A DNA stretch of 64,000 bases, taken from positions 310,001-374,000 of the forward strand of contig NZ_JNZZ01000001.1 in NCBI RefSeq assembly GCF_000717645.1, read 5' to 3'. The stretch's first letter is position 1. Each line of letters begins with the position of its first letter. This document shows, piece after piece, positions 27,249 to 33,443 of the stretch. The DNA is from Streptomyces californicus. Its GTDB lineage: Bacteria; Actinomycetota; Actinomycetes; Streptomycetales; Streptomycetaceae. The notes under the pieces were generated by a model. That model did not search any database, was not told where the DNA came from, and saw only the letters and a program-made list of their open reading frames with translations. Both the position numbers and the translations under genes were made by a program.

Positions 27249-27319
27249 GCGGAGCATCCTCACCCGGACCACGCCGTTCCGCCAAGCAGGTGACCGCGCC
27301 CGCCTGGCAGACTGGGGCG

Positions 27320-28048
27320 GTGAGCAGCGACGACATCCCCTCCCCCGCCTCCGAGAGCCCCTTCCGCAGCGGCCCGACCGACCGCGACCAAGCGCCGCAG
27401 TTCGTCCTGCCGCTGGTGCTCCACCTGGAGAAGACGGACCCGCCCGCCCGTACCGACGCCCTGCGGACCGCCGCCCGCGCGGTGCTGACGATCCTCGCCG
27501 ACGAGCGGTCCCTCGGCGACGGGGCGTGGGCGGAGGCGATGCGGGACTGGCAGGACGCCCGCATCCGCAAGGTCGTGCGCCGGGCGCGCGGCGCGGAGTG
27601 GCGCAAGGCCGCGGCGCTGGACGGCATCACGGTGACGGGCGAGGACGGCGCGGAGGTACGGGTGTTCCCGCCGATCCCGCTGGACGGCTGGCCCAAGGAG
27701 CTGGCGAAGCTCCAGGTGTCGGGCACCGATCTGGAGGACCCGGAGCCGCCCGCCGCGCCCGACCTGTCCGGCCCGGTGCTCTGGCTGAACCCCGAGGTCG
27801 ACATGTCGGCGGGCAAGACGATGGCCCAGGTCGGGCACGGGGCGCAGCTCGCCTGGTGGGAACTGTCCGGGACCGAGCGCAAGGCGTGGCGCGAGGCCGG
27901 GTTCCCGCTCTCCGTGGCGACCCCCGGGGCGGCGCGCTGGCGGGAGCTGACGGAGAGCGGGCTGCCGGTCGTGCGCGACGCCGGGTTCACCGAGATCGCC
28001 CCGGGCTCCTGCACCGTGATCGCCGACCATCCGGCGCTGCGCCGCTGA
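27320..28048 (+). CDS. Pth2-family peptidyl-tRNA hydrolase
   Basis: About 242 residues. The C-terminal half carries the Pth2 motif DMSAGKTMAQVGHGAQLAWW, with the catalytic-loop Lys, Gln and His; ESGLPVVRDAGFTEIAPGSC and TVIADHPALRR complete the fold. The N-terminal half (PQFVLPLVLHLEKTDPPART...) is an actinobacterial extension. It would free tRNA from stalled peptidyl-tRNA. Start is GTG 27320 with GTG 27290 as alternative; neither has an ideal ribosome binding site. Confidence 0.87.
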   Translation: MSSDDIPSPASESPFRSGPTDRDQAPQFVLPLVLHLEKTDPPARTDALRTAARAVLTILADERSLGDGAWAEAMRDWQDARIRKVVRRARGAEWRKAAALDGITVTGEDGAEVRVFPPIPLDGWPKELAKLQVSGTDLEDPEPPAAPDLSGPVLWLNPEVDMSAGKTMAQVGHGAQLAWWELSGTERKAWREAGFPLSVATPGAARWRELTESGLPVVRDAGFTEIAPGSCTVIADHPALRR

Positions 28049-28230: not shown

Positions 28231-29559
28231 ATGGAACTGGGCATCGGCATCGGGTGGCGGCCGGAGATCGCGCACGAGGTGGAGGCGCTGGCCGGGATCG
28301 ACTGGGTGGAGGCGGTCGCGGAGAACCTCTGCGCCGACCATCTGCCGGACTCCCTGGTACGGCTCCGGGAGCGCGGCGTCACCGTCGTGCCGCACGGGGT
28401 GGCGCTCGGCCTCGGCGGCGCGGACCGGCCCGATCCCGGCCGCCTCGCCGCCCTGGCGGCGCGGGCCGAGTTGCTGGGCGCGCCGCTGGTGACCGAGCAC
28501 ATCGCGTTCGTACGGTCCGGGGGGCCGCTGACCGCGTCGCCGGGGCTGGAGGCGGGGCACCTGCTGCCGGTACCGCGCACCTGGGACGCGCTCGACGTGC
28601 TGTGCGAGAACGTGCGGATCGCGCAGGACTCGCTGCCGGTGCCGCTCGCCCTGGAGAACATCGCCGCGCTGATCACCTGGCCCGACGAGGAGCTGACCGA
28701 GGGGCAGTTCCTGGCCGAGCTGGTCGAGCGGACCGGGGTGCGGCTGCTGATCGACGTGGCCAATCTGCACACCAACCACGTCAACCTCGGCCAGGACCCG
28801 GCGAAGGCGCTGGACGAGCTGCCGGTGGAGGCCATCGCGTACGTCCACGTGGCGGGCGGGGTCGAGAAGAACGGCGTCTGGCACGACACGCACGCCCACC
28901 CGGTGACCGCTCCCGTGCTGGAGGTGCTGGCGGAGCTGCGGTCCCGGGTCGAACCGCCGGGCGTGCTGCTGGAGCGGGACGACGCGTTCCCGCCGGCGCG
29001 GGAGCTGGCGGGCGAACTGGACGCGATCCGGGCGACGCTGCGGAAGGCGGCGCCCCCGGCGGGGTCTCAGGTTCCGGTGGGATCCCCGGCCCGGACGGTC
29101 ACCGTTCCCGCCGCCCCCGCGCCCTCCGTCTCCGCGTCGTCCGTCTCCGACGCCGCCCGTGACCGTACGGCCGTCGCACAGACCGCGCTGCTCTCCGCGC
29201 TGGTCGCCGGGACGCCCGCCCCCGCCGGCTTCGACCCCGCGCGGCTGCGGGTGCAGAGCAGGTCGCTGGCGGCCAAGCGCGCGGACGTCGTCGCCAAGGT
29301 CGCCCCGGAGCTGCCGGAGATCCTCGGCGACGGCTACCGCGCGGCGTTCCTCGCGTACGCGGGAGGCCGGCCGATGTCCGGCGGCTACCGGCGCGACGCC
29401 CTGGACTTCGCCGAGCACGTGCTCATCGCGGGCGGCCCCGCCGATCCGGTGGCGCGGCGCGAGCTGACGTACTGGTGGCGGGACCGCTCGGGTTCCCGCC
29501 CGCCGGGCCGGGCCACCCGGCTGATCCGTGCGGCGCGCGCCGCCCTCGTGGGGAGGTGA
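28231..29559 (+). CDS. DUF692 (MNIO) family enzyme with SCO6045-like C-terminal domain
   Basis: 442 residues. Residues 1-275 are a DUF692 TIM barrel, the family now called multinuclear non-heme iron-dependent oxidases that modify cysteine-containing peptides. Candidate metal ligands in order: H55 (VVPHGV), H90 (VTEHIAF), E142 (LENIAA), D175 and H180/H183 ([10 protein letters not shown]), H206 (YVHVAGG), D219/H221 (HDTHAHP), E249 (LLERDDAFP). A Pro/Ala/Ser linker (about 275-312) leads to a C-terminal helical domain (about 315-440) like the one named after SCO6045 and related to partner/recognition proteins of MNIO enzymes. ATG 28231 is used. The next gene begins 5 bases after its stop and encodes a Cys-rich membrane protein, its likely substrate. 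Confidence 0.88.
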
Positions 29560-29564
29560 ACGCC

Positions 29565-30626
29565 GTGAACGCTCTCGCTCTGCTGCTGAACATCGCGGCT
29601 CTCGTCTCGGCGGTCCTCCTCGTCACGACCGCCGTCTCCGCCGGGTCCCGCCGCCCCTCGGCCGGGCCCTTCCCCGGCGTCCACGACCTCTACGAGGCCG
29701 CGTTCCTGAACGGCGGACCGGCCAGGGTGGTGGACACCGCGCTCACCGCCCTGTACGCGGACGGCCGCGTGCTCATCGGCGGCCCCGGCATCATCTCCGT
29801 ACAGCGTCCGCAGGCGGACGACCCGGTGGAACGCGCCGTGCTCCACGAGCTGTCGGCCGCTCCGAGCGGCGCGCTGCACGTCATACGGGAGGCGGCGATG
29901 CGTCACCCGGCGGTGCAGGAGATCGGCGACGGGCTGGCACAGCGCGGGCTGCTCGTCCCGCCCGCCGCGAACCGCGGCGTATGGCGCTGGGGGCTGGTAC
30001 AGGGCGTGAGCTGCCTGGTCGCGTTCCCGGTCTCCATCGTGCTGACGGTCCTCCAGTACGCGACGCACGGCGCGTCCTTCGACCTGCCGGCCCCGTTCGT
30101 CGTCAAGATGCTGCCGGCGATCGTGGTCGGCGGGATCAGCGGTCTCGTCGTCGCCTCGGTCGCGGCGAGGCGGATCACCGGGGCGGGCCGCCGGGCCGCG
30201 CAGGGGTTCGGGGCGGCCCACGCCCAGGCGGCCGACCCGGCCCACCTGGTCGCCGTGCGGGGGCTGCGCGCGCTGCCGGACCCGGCGCTCCGGGCCCAGC
30301 TGATCGCGGCGGCGCGGCTGGGCGCCCCGCGCCGCCGCCGCTCCTCCGGCCACACCTACGGGTCCTCCACGACGGGGGCCACCGCCGTCGCCGCCACGAC
30401 GGTCTGGTGCGCCGCCTCCGGCCCCGGCGCATCGAGCTGCGGCGGGTCCAGCGGGGGCGGTTCCGGGTCGGGATGCGGCGGCGGGTCCGGGTGCTCCTCG
30501 GGCTCCGGGTGCGGCGGTGGCTCGGGGTCGAGCTGCGGAGGCGGCGGATCGAGCTGCGGAGGGGGAGGCGGCGGCTCCGGCTGCGGGGGCGGAGGCGGTG
30601 GTGGGTGCGGAGGCGGCGGCTCCTGA
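29565..30626 (+). CDS. TIGR04222-type membrane protein with nine-cysteine Gly/Ser tail
   Basis: 353 residues. Hydrophobic segments lie at 3-24, about 146-166 and 179-202. Between them is a folded region (PFPGVHDLYEAAFLNGGPAR, ADDPVERAVLHELSAAPSG) matching the TIGR04222 N-terminal domain. From about residue 278 the protein is almost only Gly, Ser and Cys, with Cys at 282, 292, 304, 310, 316, 324, 331, 340 and 348. Spacing is irregular (6-12), unlike a zinc finger. GTG 29565 is preceded by GGGGAGG; an alternative GTG 29556 overlaps the DUF692 stop as GTGA. Tight linkage to the DUF692 enzyme suggests the tail is a modified substrate. The tail's membrane side is not established. Confidence 0.86.
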   Translation: MNALALLLNIAALVSAVLLVTTAVSAGSRRPSAGPFPGVHDLYEAAFLNGGPARVVDTALTALYADGRVLIGGPGIISVQRPQADDPVERAVLHELSAAPSGALHVIREAAMRHPAVQEIGDGLAQRGLLVPPAANRGVWRWGLVQGVSCLVAFPVSIVLTVLQYATHGASFDLPAPFVVKMLPAIVVGGISGLVVASVAARRITGAGRRAAQGFGAAHAQAADPAHLVAVRGLRALPDPALRAQLIAAARLGAPRRRRSSGHTYGSSTTGATAVAATTVWCAASGPGASSCGGSSGGGSGSGCGGGSGCSSGSGCGGGSGSSCGGGGSSCGGGGGGSGCGGGGGGGCGGGGS

Positions 30627-30715: not shown

Positions 30716-30836
30716 CCGGACAGGACCCGAGCGGCCTGAAACAGCCCTGTACGTAAGGTCGTTGACCACCCATAGGGGTGGTTCACGGGGACATGCGACG
30801 ACAGTGCTGGACATCGCCGCCCGCCCGCCCGACCAT

Positions 30837-30899
30837 CCCTCTCCGCATCCGCGGAGAGGCACCGCCGTCCCTCTCCTCATCCGCAGAGAGGTACCGCGC
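30837..30899 (+). repeat. tandem 32-bp duplication of a hairpin plus ribosome binding site
   Basis: Copy 1 starts at 30837 and copy 2 at 30869. Copy 1 contains a perfect 8-bp hairpin (CTCTCCGC, loop ATCC, GCGGAGAG); copy 2 keeps a shorter version. Each includes a GAGAGG element, and only the second is correctly spaced from the GTG start at 30900. Confidence 0.7.
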
Positions 30900-32462
30900 G
30901 TGAGAACAGCTGCGCTCTACACCACCGTCGGCTCCCTGGTCCTGTCCGCTCTGGCCGTCGCGCCGGCGGCCGCCCGGGAGGGCCGGGGCCCCGCCGAGGC
31001 CCGGGGCACCGCGATCGCCGCCGCCCGCGCCGCGTCCGCCGGGATCGACTTCGCCGCCTGCCCCGAGGAGGAGATGCTCCCGGACTCCCTGAAGTGCGGC
31101 ACGGTGAAAGTGCCGCTCGACTACGCCGAACCGGACGGGCGGCAGCTCGAGCTGACCGTCAGCCGCACCCCCGCCACCGGTCCGGCCGAGGACCGGCAGG
31201 GCGCGTTCGTCTACAATCCGGGCGGGCCCGGCGCGTCCAGCATCACCTTCCCGATGGCCGGGGAACTGCCGGAGTGGAAGGAGATCGCGGAGGCGTACGA
31301 CCTGGTCGGCTACGCCCCGCGCGGGGTGAACGGGTCCTCCTCGCCGCTGAGTTGCCAGGACCCGTCCGCGTACACGAAGGGCCCGACCGACGCCCCCGTC
31401 CACCCCACGCAGGCGGACAAGGAGCGGCGGATCGCCCGTGCGCGGGCCTACGCGCGAGGCTGCGCCGAACACGCGGGCGACTCCCTGCGCCACTACACCT
31501 CGCTGAACAATGCCCGGGACCTGGACGTGCTGCGGGCCGCGCTGGGCGAGCCGCGGCTCACGTTCATGGGGGCGTCCTACGGGACGTACTTCGGCGCGCT
31601 GTACGCGACCCTGTTCCCCACCCACGTACGGCGCATGGTCTTCGACTCGGTGGTCGACCCGGACCCCGAGCAGATCTGGTACCGCTCCAACATGGGCCAG
31701 TCGGTGGCCTTCGAGCGGCGGTGGGAGGACTTCCGGCGCTGGGTGGCGAAGCACGACGACGTGTACCGCCTGGGCACCACCCCCGAAGCGGTGGGGAAGC
31801 ACTACGACGCGGTGCGCGCCGAGTTGGCGGTGAAGCCGGCGGGCGGCAAGGTCGGACCGGGGCAGTTGCACGGGGCGTTCCTGTCGGCCGGCTACTACGA
31901 CGACTACTGGGCGATGCGGGCGACGGCGCTGTCCGAGTACGTCCGGGGCAACCCGGAACCGCTGGTGGCGCAGGCGTCCCCGCGCGCGGTGGCGGCCAAG
32001 GACAACGAGAACGCGCAGGCGGTGTACACGGCCGTCGAATGCAACGACGCGCCGTGGCCCGAGGACTTCGCCGTCTGGGACCGCGACCACACGGAGCTGG
32101 CGCGCGTCGCGCCCTTCGAGGCGTGGGACAACGCGTTCACCAATCTGCCGTGCGCGTTCTGGCCGGCGCCCCGGCAGCGCCCGCTGGAGGTCGGGACGCG
32201 GTGGGGCGTGCTGCCGCCGGTGCTGATCCTGGCGGCGGAGCGGGACGCGGCGACCCCGTACCGGGGGGCGTTGGAGCTGCGGAGGCGGCTGCCCGGCTCG
32301 TCGCTGGTGACCGAGCGGGGCGCGGGGACGCACGGGGTCGGCGGGGCCGGGAACCCGTGCGTGGACGAGCATCTGCGCCGGTACCTGCTGACCGGCGAGG
32401 TGCCGGGGCGGAGCGCGGACTGCGCCGCCCGACCCGAGCCCAACGCGGTGTCGCTGGACTGA
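30900..32462 (+). CDS. secreted alpha/beta hydrolase, tripeptidyl-aminopeptidase-like
   Basis: 520 residues with a cleavable signal (RTAALYTTVGSLVLSALAVA, PAAAR). The body matches the S33/TAP family: CGTVKVPLDYAEPDG, FVYNPGGPGASS (oxyanion HGGPG-like), NNARDLDVLRAALGE, nucleophile in FMGASYGTYFGALYA, catalytic Asp in LILAAERDAATPYRGAL and His in GAGTHGVGG. Paired cysteines in CPEEEMLPDSLKCG and DCAARP suit an extracellular enzyme. GTG 30900 follows GAGAGG in a duplicated leader. It is separated from the Cys-rich protein by 273 bases, so may be independently expressed. Confidence 0.92.
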   Translation: MRTAALYTTVGSLVLSALAVAPAAAREGRGPAEARGTAIAAARAASAGIDFAACPEEEMLPDSLKCGTVKVPLDYAEPDGRQLELTVSRTPATGPAEDRQGAFVYNPGGPGASSITFPMAGELPEWKEIAEAYDLVGYAPRGVNGSSSPLSCQDPSAYTKGPTDAPVHPTQADKERRIARARAYARGCAEHAGDSLRHYTSLNNARDLDVLRAALGEPRLTFMGASYGTYFGALYATLFPTHVRRMVFDSVVDPDPEQIWYRSNMGQSVAFERRWEDFRRWVAKHDDVYRLGTTPEAVGKHYDAVRAELAVKPAGGKVGPGQLHGAFLSAGYYDDYWAMRATALSEYVRGNPEPLVAQASPRAVAAKDNENAQAVYTAVECNDAPWPEDFAVWDRDHTELARVAPFEAWDNAFTNLPCAFWPAPRQRPLEVGTRWGVLPPVLILAAERDAATPYRGALELRRRLPGSSLVTERGAGTHGVGGAGNPCVDEHLRRYLLTGEVPGRSADCAARPEPNAVSLD

Positions 32463-32714: not shown

Positions 32715-33443
32715 CTATGCGAGCCCGGCCACCAGGTGCGCGACGCTCTTCCTGCGGCCCGTGTAGAACGGGACCTCCTCGCGCACGTGGAGACGTGCCT
32801 CGGAGGCGCGCAGGTGGCGCATCAGGTCGACGATGCGGTACAGCTCGTCGGCCTCGAAGGCGAGGATCCACTCGTAGTCGCCGAGCGAGAACGAGGCGAC
32901 GGTGTTGGCGCGGACGTCCGGGTAGCCCCGGGCCATCTTGCCGTGGTCCGCGAGCATGCGGCGGCGGTCCTCGTCGGGCAGCAGGTACCAGTCGTAGGAC
33001 CGGACGAAGGGGTAGACGCTGATGTAGTCGCGCGGCGTCTCGTCGGCGAGGAACGCCGGGATGTGCGACTTGTTGAACTCGGCGGGCCGGTGCAGGGCCA
33101 TGTTGGACCAGACCGGTTCGAGAGCGCGTCCGAGCTTGGTGCGGCGGAAGAGGTTGTACGCGTCCTGGAGCTGGTCCGAGGTCTCGGCGTGCCACCAGAT
33201 CATGATGTCCGCGTCGGCCCGCAGACCCGAAAGGTCGTAGGTGCCGCGGACGGTGACGTCCTCGGCGGCGAGCTGGTCGAACAGCTCCTGGACCTCGTCG
33301 GCGTATCCGGCGCGGTCCAGGGGGAGCACGTCGCGCAGCTTGAAGACCGACCACAGGGTGTAGCGGATGACCTCGTTGAGGTCCTTGGCCTTCTTGCCGG
33401 CGTTCGGACTCTTGCTTGATGTCGCAGTCTCAGGAGCACTCAT
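32715..33443 (-). CDS. hemQ: coproheme decarboxylase HemQ (chlorite-dismutase family)
   Basis: 242 residues. Converts coproheme III to heme b in the coproporphyrin-dependent pathway of Gram-positive bacteria. The catalytic Tyr is Y144 in [16 protein letters not shown] and the proximal His is probably H167 in [30 protein letters not shown] is a family hallmark. It follows hemY with only 4 bases between them, so they are one operon. Length and motifs are normal. Confidence 0.95.

Follow-up and report, generated by a model that had tools for sequence, protein, structure and literature searches.

Cysteine tails of membrane-anchored proteins as proposed substrates of a Streptomyces MNIO enzyme with a fused partner-type domain

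What does an enzyme of the MNIO (DUF692) family act on when the gene behind it encodes a membrane protein ending in a long run of glycine, serine and cysteine? The question is raised by a 64,000-nucleotide stretch of the Streptomyces californicus genome (contig NZ_JNZZ01000001.1, positions 310,001 to 374,000; here called the window), in which the stop codon of an MNIO gene is followed after 5 bases, on the same strand, by the GTG start of a gene of the TIGR04222 family. We find the two genes paired across actinomycetes, a partner-type domain fused to the enzyme or encoded beside it, an intact set of metal-ligand-type residues, regularly spaced cysteines in the tail, and tails of this sort on unrelated anchors as well. 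Our reading of these observations, to which we give a probability of roughly one half, is that the MNIO with its fused partner oxidizes cysteines in the tails of membrane-anchored proteins, which would become tethered, cytosol-facing metal ligands.

The pair itself is readily recognized. The MNIO matches PF05114 with 255.6 bits (cut-off 25) over residues 4-270, and it reaches 173.2 bits against the BufB model NF050167, whose equivalog cut-off is 310, so that it falls outside BufB proper. Its neighbor scores 161.8 bits against TIGR04222 (cut-off 43) and starts in a context, MN.LAL, that is conserved in 34 aligned relatives. Nine of its ten cysteines lie within the last 75 residues, which also hold 41 glycines and 18 serines, no lysine or arginine is found beyond residue 259, and it is the only open reading frame (ORF) on either strand of the window with a tail by our criterion. 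As for the enzyme, H55, H90, E142, D175, N178, H206, D219 and H221 do not vary among the 81 MNIO matches of at least 180 bits in our class survey (the window's own included), and E248 is kept in 80 of them, the remaining row having a gap there; with an alignment to the 8hci, 3bww and 7dz9 chains, we take the conserved His, Asp and Glu residues to be iron ligands. The initial annotation of this DNA had described just such a full set of candidate ligands, next to a TIGR04222 protein with nine cysteines in its tail, and both descriptions are borne out.

Are the two genes usually apart in other genomes, a possibility that the initial annotation had raised against its own proposal? Both families were searched for in two overlapping sets, one of 296 genomes from the phylum and one of 324 from the class; because at most the best nine (phylum) or eight (class) TIGR04222 candidates per genome were scored, absences are upper bounds. 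The genes are not usually apart: in the class sample, 53 of 65 TIGR04222 matches of at least 100 bits have an MNIO within 10 kb (always on the same strand), as do 10/24 matches of 60-100 bits and 3/28 of 43-60 bits. Seen from the enzyme, a TIGR04222 gene is nearby for 57 of the 72 MNIOs of 225-300 bits and for none of the three above 300 bits, one of which adjoins a PF09836 (DUF2063) protein by scan while the other two look alike. A single-genome artefact was considered for the pair and rejected on the phylum and class surveys. The earlier proposal that the membrane protein is a full-length MNIO substrate thus gains support by association only, through the pairing.

It is the tail, rather than the TIGR04222 protein as such, that follows the enzyme. 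Among 117 TIGR04222 matches, 46 cysteine-tailed proteins have an adjacent MNIO and nine do not, compared with 20 and 42 of the untailed ones, and 53 of the 55 tailed proteins occur in genomes with an MNIO of at least 150 bits. Five of the nine without an adjacent MNIO belong to one genus (g235) with an MNIO elsewhere in the genome; another (G423) looks like a wrong frame and is kept in the count. For these numbers, as for the 80-locus and mini-protein counts below, a tail means at least three cysteines in the last 60 residues and a minimum of Gly plus Ser, whereas ORFs in MNIO loci were scanned with a stricter windowed criterion; all tail criteria are our own, and the two sets of numbers are not comparable, one counting TIGR04222 proteins and the other MNIO loci. 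In the stricter scan a tail ORF lies within 3.5 kb on the MNIO strand in 49 of 73 loci (220-300 bits) and on the opposite strand in none; of the five MNIOs of 180-220 bits, two have a tail ORF nearby, and of the three above 300 bits none does. The control, 52 loci (376 kb) that lack an MNIO of at least 180 bits and had been fetched for a TIGR04222-like or weaker MNIO match (two of them hold such a weaker MNIO match), contains three tail ORFs, on which grounds we rejected the idea that the tail is a chance ORF.

The cysteines of the tail are laid out with some regularity. In 54 Streptomyces tails there are 5-11 cysteines each, only two of 388 Cys-Cys steps are of two residues or fewer (mean of 95 in shuffles), and glycine directly follows cysteine in 288 of 442 cases. 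This Cys-Gly arrangement resembles the AEGKCGEGKCG motif of oxazolin, whose cysteines become copper-binding 5-thiooxazoles (PMC13419390). From the four-electron oxidation reported there for 5-thiooxazole we would expect a change of about -4 Da for each modified cysteine. Tails of this kind are also found on other proteins. Where an MNIO locus has no TIGR04222 gene, another protein carries one in 8 of 15 cases: six are single-helix proteins of 87-119 residues, and two are longer, at 438-447 residues, and have no strong helix (their highest 19-residue mean hydropathies are 1.26 and 1.39). Two observations on TIGR04222 proteins may be recorded here. The window's own genome (G000) encodes further TIGR04222-like proteins, unlinked to an MNIO, with Gly-rich tails that hold three cysteines (C1:13901-14629) and one cysteine (C10:29643-29951). 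In 6/6 of the loci L055, L056, L057, L059, L060 and L062, the tail-less TIGR04222 paralogue retains a pair of cysteines within its first helix (CxxLCLA).

If the tail is the substrate, what recognizes it? Behind the PF05114 barrel and a Pro/Ala/Ser linker, the MNIO continues into a C-terminal domain, residues 312-442, that lies outside PF05114. A Pfam scan gives no match over these residues, although the precomputed domain table assigns PF26136, a family whose name would be SCO6045-like, judging from the proteins with PF26136 only, which the precomputed tables call 'SCO6045-like C-terminal domain-containing'. A function for PF26136 was not found in the literature searched, where SCO6045 was met only in one expression table. 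In other actinomycetes, a profile of the window family's domain detects small free-standing ORFs next to unfused MNIOs; they are 30-35% identical to the fused domain and have invariant residues in common with it. With a profile built from these sequences, the domain is found at 58 of 58 MNIOs with a TIGR04222 neighbor, 41 times fused in one open frame and 17 times as a separate ORF; it goes with 75 of the 81 MNIOs of at least 180 bits, and 76 of the 77 ORFs that bear it in the fetched loci adjoin an MNIO. The sole exception is a TIGR04222 protein (G323 C1:5645519-5646538, locus L151) in which the cysteine tail continues into part of the partner domain, which looks as though an MNIO gene had dropped out in between. 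Among 80 close Streptomyces relatives the enzyme and the domain are fused in 74; in the other six the domain is a separate gene (L249, L263), lies in another frame (L200, L241) or the contig ends (L195, L264). A domain that is both fused and split among relatives points to a function shared with the MNIO, and the separate homologues, the 58/58 and the 76/77 support the partner role that the initial annotation had suggested for it. That such a fusion should occur naturally is plausible by analogy, since an engineered HvfB-HvfC fusion is highly active (PMC13419390). No match to PF09836 was given by a Pfam scan within the domain. We set aside its one match to a PDB sequence, at E 0.36, as chance, there being none below E 0.1.

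In Streptomyces whose MNIO has only tail-less neighbors, no other precursor was found beside the enzyme among small conserved ORFs and Cys/Gly/Ser ORFs, a scan in which short ORFs are not exhaustively covered; we therefore searched whole genomes with a DNA pattern of the tail. As this pattern did not clearly match more often than its reversed form, we took up only individual matches that could be read in frame. They led to an unlinked mini-protein, about 70-120 residues long (72-121 in an alignment of 26), whose gene often has a good ribosome site. Its one N-terminal helix is followed by an Arg-rich stretch, by SWWAG and by a Gly/Ser/Cys tail, in many cases with histidine (consensus SWWAGG...SCGGGSSC...GGGGGCGGGS), and its gene stands upstream of a DUF2617 gene at a syntenic place across Streptomyces. 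In the window's own genome it has 105 amino acids (C8:227193-227510), with a DUF2617 and a spermidine-synthase-like gene as neighbors by Pfam; DUF4247/DUF2617 pairs are described as belonging to polyamine-type variants of PspA operons (PMC11237479). The initial annotation, with its single tailed substrate, had missed this protein along with the tails on other anchors and the tail-less TIGR04222 neighbors.

Does the mini-protein's tail depend on the MNIO? At the syntenic place a tail of at least three cysteines is present in 27 of 30 MNIO-bearing genomes and 0 of 4 MNIO-lacking ones in the first set, and in 15/18 against 2/11 in fresh genomes (Fisher p 0.0013). Pooled, and with the window's genome included, the tail is present in 42 of the 48 Streptomyces with an MNIO and in 2 of the 15 without (p 2e-7), where G523 is counted as lacking despite a remote 51-bit PF05114 match, G591 and G766, with some 320-350 bases upstream of DUF2617, are counted as tail-less, and G736, without a DUF2617 match, is dropped. 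Several MNIO-lacking genomes have a similar gene in place, with 0-2 cysteines in its tail; the two that do bear the tail, G675 and G875, are assembled in 1420 and 750 contigs. In a protein search the mini-protein had seemed to replace the tailed TIGR04222 protein (13/18 vs 2/12 genomes), which we discarded as a detection artefact because the mini-protein is also present at the syntenic locus in 11 of the 12 tailed genomes. Where the TIGR04222 neighbor of an MNIO is tail-less, we regard the mini-protein as a candidate for the enzyme's substrate. The pattern search also brought up a repeat in biotin synthase, which we set aside: in two Streptomyces genomes, at unlinked places, ORFs of biotin-synthase type (radical SAM and BATS by Pfam in L310:1342-2646, by likeness in L309:1502-2857) end in CGSHEGxG repeats with several spaced cysteines, here on a soluble enzyme.

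On which side of the membrane would these tails lie? In TIGR04222 proteins, lysine and arginine are found mostly in the long loop after helix 1, few or none are found between helices 2 and 3, and they are found again after helix 3; the window's protein has none in the short loop. Three helices and this charge distribution would place the tail in the cytosol. For the mini-proteins, 30 of 31 ORFs have no lysine or arginine before the helix, with 1-11 after it, and 29 of 31 combine a strong helix (17-residue mean of at least 2.67), no such residue before it and 1-11 in the next 25 residues (the 31 include one truncated record and one ORF whose start is probably wrong). With positive charge after the helix only, the positive-inside rule again puts the tail in the cytosol. 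The six single-helix proteins beside an MNIO have no lysine or arginine before the helix in four cases, one in one and, at the chosen start, five in one. By hydropathy and charge, then, the cysteine tails are predicted to face the cytosol, opposite to the published view.

Taken together, these points suggest the following sequence of events. Tail proteins would be bound on the cytosolic side of the membrane by the MNIO and the partner domain it carries in cis, and their tail cysteines would be converted one after another into 5-thiooxazole or oxazolone/thioamide-type ligands. The tails would remain on their anchors at the cytosolic face as a tethered sink for soft metals, most likely copper. 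The anchor would be exchangeable (three-helix TIGR04222, single-helix mini-protein, occasionally a protein in which no helix is evident), and a single enzyme would serve substrates encoded beside it as well as elsewhere. The role of the tail as substrate, its cytosolic side, the chemistry and the metal binding are what we infer here. More tentative still is the wider claim that actinomycete MNIOs with a built-in or companion partner keep a whole pool of full-length, membrane-tethered, cytosol-facing cysteine tails on interchangeable anchors, encoded both adjacent to the enzyme and at the unlinked DUF2617/polyamine-type locus; we hold this to be possible, and the odds lean against it.

How else could the tails be read? 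In the published view the TIGR04222 tail is an MNIO substrate that lies outside the cytoplasm, like the exported bufferins, and is modified before insertion: by the prediction of Antoine et al. (PMC12452194), the protein crosses the membrane several times and its low-complexity region is periplasmic. In 14 of 35 tailed proteins from outside Streptomyces the tail is indeed preceded by a fourth hydrophobic stretch (at least 1.4), and would then lie outside. In Streptomyces this stretch is weak (median 0.9; at least 1.4 in 1/12, and in 5/55 of the 80-locus set) and the charges put loop 3 and the tail inside; the mini-protein, with its charges after the helix, and the two tail proteins without a strong helix fit an external tail poorly, and we think the published placement rather unlikely for these proteins. 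A second way to account for the linkage is a shared role in metal stress, the MNIO acting on another product, encoded close by or at a distance, and the tail binding metal or forming disulfides unmodified. It would explain why untailed TIGR04222 proteins also stand beside MNIOs, being the only such neighbors of 15 fused ones, and why nine tailed proteins lack an MNIO neighbor; the occurrence in MNIO-free loci of Gly-rich tails poor in cysteine or devoid of it suggests that the tail as such may serve another role. That the tails recur beside MNIOs on unrelated anchors, with almost all tailed TIGR04222 proteins confined to MNIO genomes, and that the MNIO loci offer no other Cys-rich or conserved small ORF (in scans not exhaustive for short ORFs) make us consider an unmodified tail unlikely. 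Finally, the regular spacing of the cysteines could also stem mainly from slippage of a repeat unit in GC-rich DNA, so that the cysteines would be functionless and the association with the MNIO inherited linkage. Tail length and unit (SSCGGG, SSCSSSS) do differ between relatives, and Gly/Ser tails without cysteine exist; yet the cysteines are kept at 5-11 and almost never less than three residues apart in 54 tails, and a similar tail occurs at an unlinked locus and on unrelated anchors, which leaves slippage very improbable.

Several results, the fourth hydrophobic stretch outside Streptomyces among them, weigh against the reading of the tails as cytosolic MNIO substrates. A tail-less TIGR04222 protein is the only neighbor of the MNIO in 14 of 30 MNIO-bearing Streptomyces, with no TIGR04222 neighbor found in another 4 of the 30, and tandem tailed and untailed neighbors are common. 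Were the partner-type domain an MNIO partner of PME-type 2, it should resemble DUF2063/TglI in structure, but its match to DUF2063 proteins by hhalign is weak: it is collinear over the domain at P 0.0089 (controls 0.59 and 0.32), in a single, uncalibrated comparison with ten DUF2063-type proteins, two of which were checked as PF09836. The correlation between MNIO and mini-protein is confounded by descent and is not upheld once this is corrected for, as 12 of the 15 genomes without an MNIO belong to a single clade of 16 rows, of whose four MNIO-bearing members three are also without a tail of at least three cysteines. A further co-loss outside this clade (G829) is on a weakly supported branch, and a test of independent pairs on the DUF2617 tree, with four pairs and a median sign-test p of 1, had no power. 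We therefore treat the correlation as a strong lead rather than as proof.

The features of the locus are collected in Table 1. Within the survey loci and the 80 Streptomyces loci (the latter with flanks of up to 4 kb), the PTH2-like gene has a homologue in 9/15 and 65/80 and the TAP-like hydrolase in 9/15 and 37/80. The initial annotation saw neither a protease nor a dedicated exporter next to the pair. Inspection by eye of the ORFs directly flanking the pair likewise recognizes no dedicated exporter; the protease part is not strictly true, since the TAP-like hydrolase, probably secreted as judged by eye, lies downstream on the same strand, though nothing marks it as a maturation protease. Further downstream on the opposite strand is a HemQ-type gene of the chlorite-dismutase family (PF06778; window 32715-33443), with homologues in 10/15 and 48/80 loci, followed on the same minus strand by an amine-oxidase-type flavoprotein (PF01593; 33448-34980) that we take to be protoporphyrinogen oxidase. 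In several Streptomyces a protein of about 270 residues, which to our eye resembles DUF4142, stands beside the MNIO, just downstream in L053, L055, L056 and L058 and upstream in L054 and L056.

Table 1. Features of the MNIO-TIGR04222 locus, in window positions.
Feature	Position	Strand	Basis or remark
MNIO (DUF692, PF05114) with fused C-terminal partner-type domain, 442 aa	28231..29559	+	PF05114 E 6.1e-76; nearest NCBIfam model BufB
MNIO catalytic barrel, metal-ligand-type residues H55 H90 E142 D175 N178 H206 D219 H221 E248	28240..29040	+	
C-terminal domain of MNIO, residues 312-442	29164..29556	+	PF26136 in precomputed domain tables; homologues are separate partner-type genes
TIGR04222 membrane protein, 353 aa, GTG start, proposed MNIO substrate	29565..30626	+	TIGR04222 161.8 bits
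Three hydrophobic segments of TIGR04222 protein, about residues 3-21, 144-162, 178-196	29571..30152	+	hydropathy and charge counts only
Gly/Ser tail, last 75 residues, nine Cys, conserved Trp-Cys (W281 C282) at its start	30399..30623	+	
PTH2-like gene directly upstream of MNIO	27290..28048	+	PF01981 34.9 bits; 252 aa, one Cys
TAP-like alpha/beta hydrolase, next gene downstream	30900..32462, start uncertain 30762-30900 (TTG 30762)	+	PF08386 91.6 bits

What would it mean if these tails are modified where we predict them? As an MNIO is present in 301 of 314 Streptomyces genomes, a nearly universal protein modification would be found in a heavily used genus, and the enzyme would be a general protein maturase acting in trans rather than a peptide natural-product enzyme. 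Streptomyces would also have a metal buffer at the inner membrane that is the topological mirror image of the exported bufferins; cytosolic copper buffering in S. coelicolor was called poorly understood in a 2019 study (PMC6414726).

How does the locus compare with what is known? The pairing, which the initial annotation had taken as distinctive, is not so in itself, because MNIO-TIGR04222 loci were described in 2025. Antoine et al. collected TIGR04222 proteins, noted their Cys/Gly/Ser tails and proposed subsets as MNIO protein substrates; they tabulated the gene order peptidyl-tRNA hydrolase - MNIO - TIGR04222, with a cluster II 'Adjamnio-II - MNIO - TIGR04222', found many MNIO-TIGR04222 loci apparently without partner genes and placed the tail in the periplasm (PMC12452194). 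The window shares with these loci the gene order, the families, the tail and the proposal of the tail as substrate, and the tail proteins on other anchors beside MNIOs may overlap with the published 'adjamnio-V'. As described there, adjamnio-II has 233-256 residues, one cysteine and PF01195; the PTH2-like protein of the window is of similar make, with 252 residues and one cysteine, but matches PF01981. What differs here is the partner-type domain in 58 of 58 loci, the predicted cytosolic tail and the tails on other anchors and in trans. Fused or separate, a partner-type domain in each of these loci offers an answer to a question left open in 2025, whether MNIO-TIGR04222 loci that look partner-less can work. 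Pairing and substrate idea are thus already published; the fused-partner variant and the extended set of likely substrates are new within the literature searched, in which, supplementary files lying outside that search, we found no paper describing the present MNIO-domain fusion.

The nearest characterized MNIOs, by profile, are those of the bufferins and oxazolins (BufBC, and HvfBC with its DUF2063 partner, PME-type 1), with BufB at the 173 bits given above. Their substrates likewise hold several spaced cysteines before small residues, and they too need a partner. In contrast to the window's proposed substrate, a membrane protein without a signal peptide, bufferin and oxazolin substrates are exported precursors with one, and their partner is a separate DUF2063-RRE protein where the window's partner-type domain is fused. 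MovX and ChrH are named as exceptions to separate MNIO partners (PMC13419390; also named in PMC12452194). Like the enzyme studied here, MovX (with a fused C-terminal RRE or winged-helix domain) and ChrH are natural MNIOs whose additional domain may stand in for the partner. By its published description, that domain is a different one; the domain of the window's MNIO has stand-alone homologues beside unfused MNIOs.

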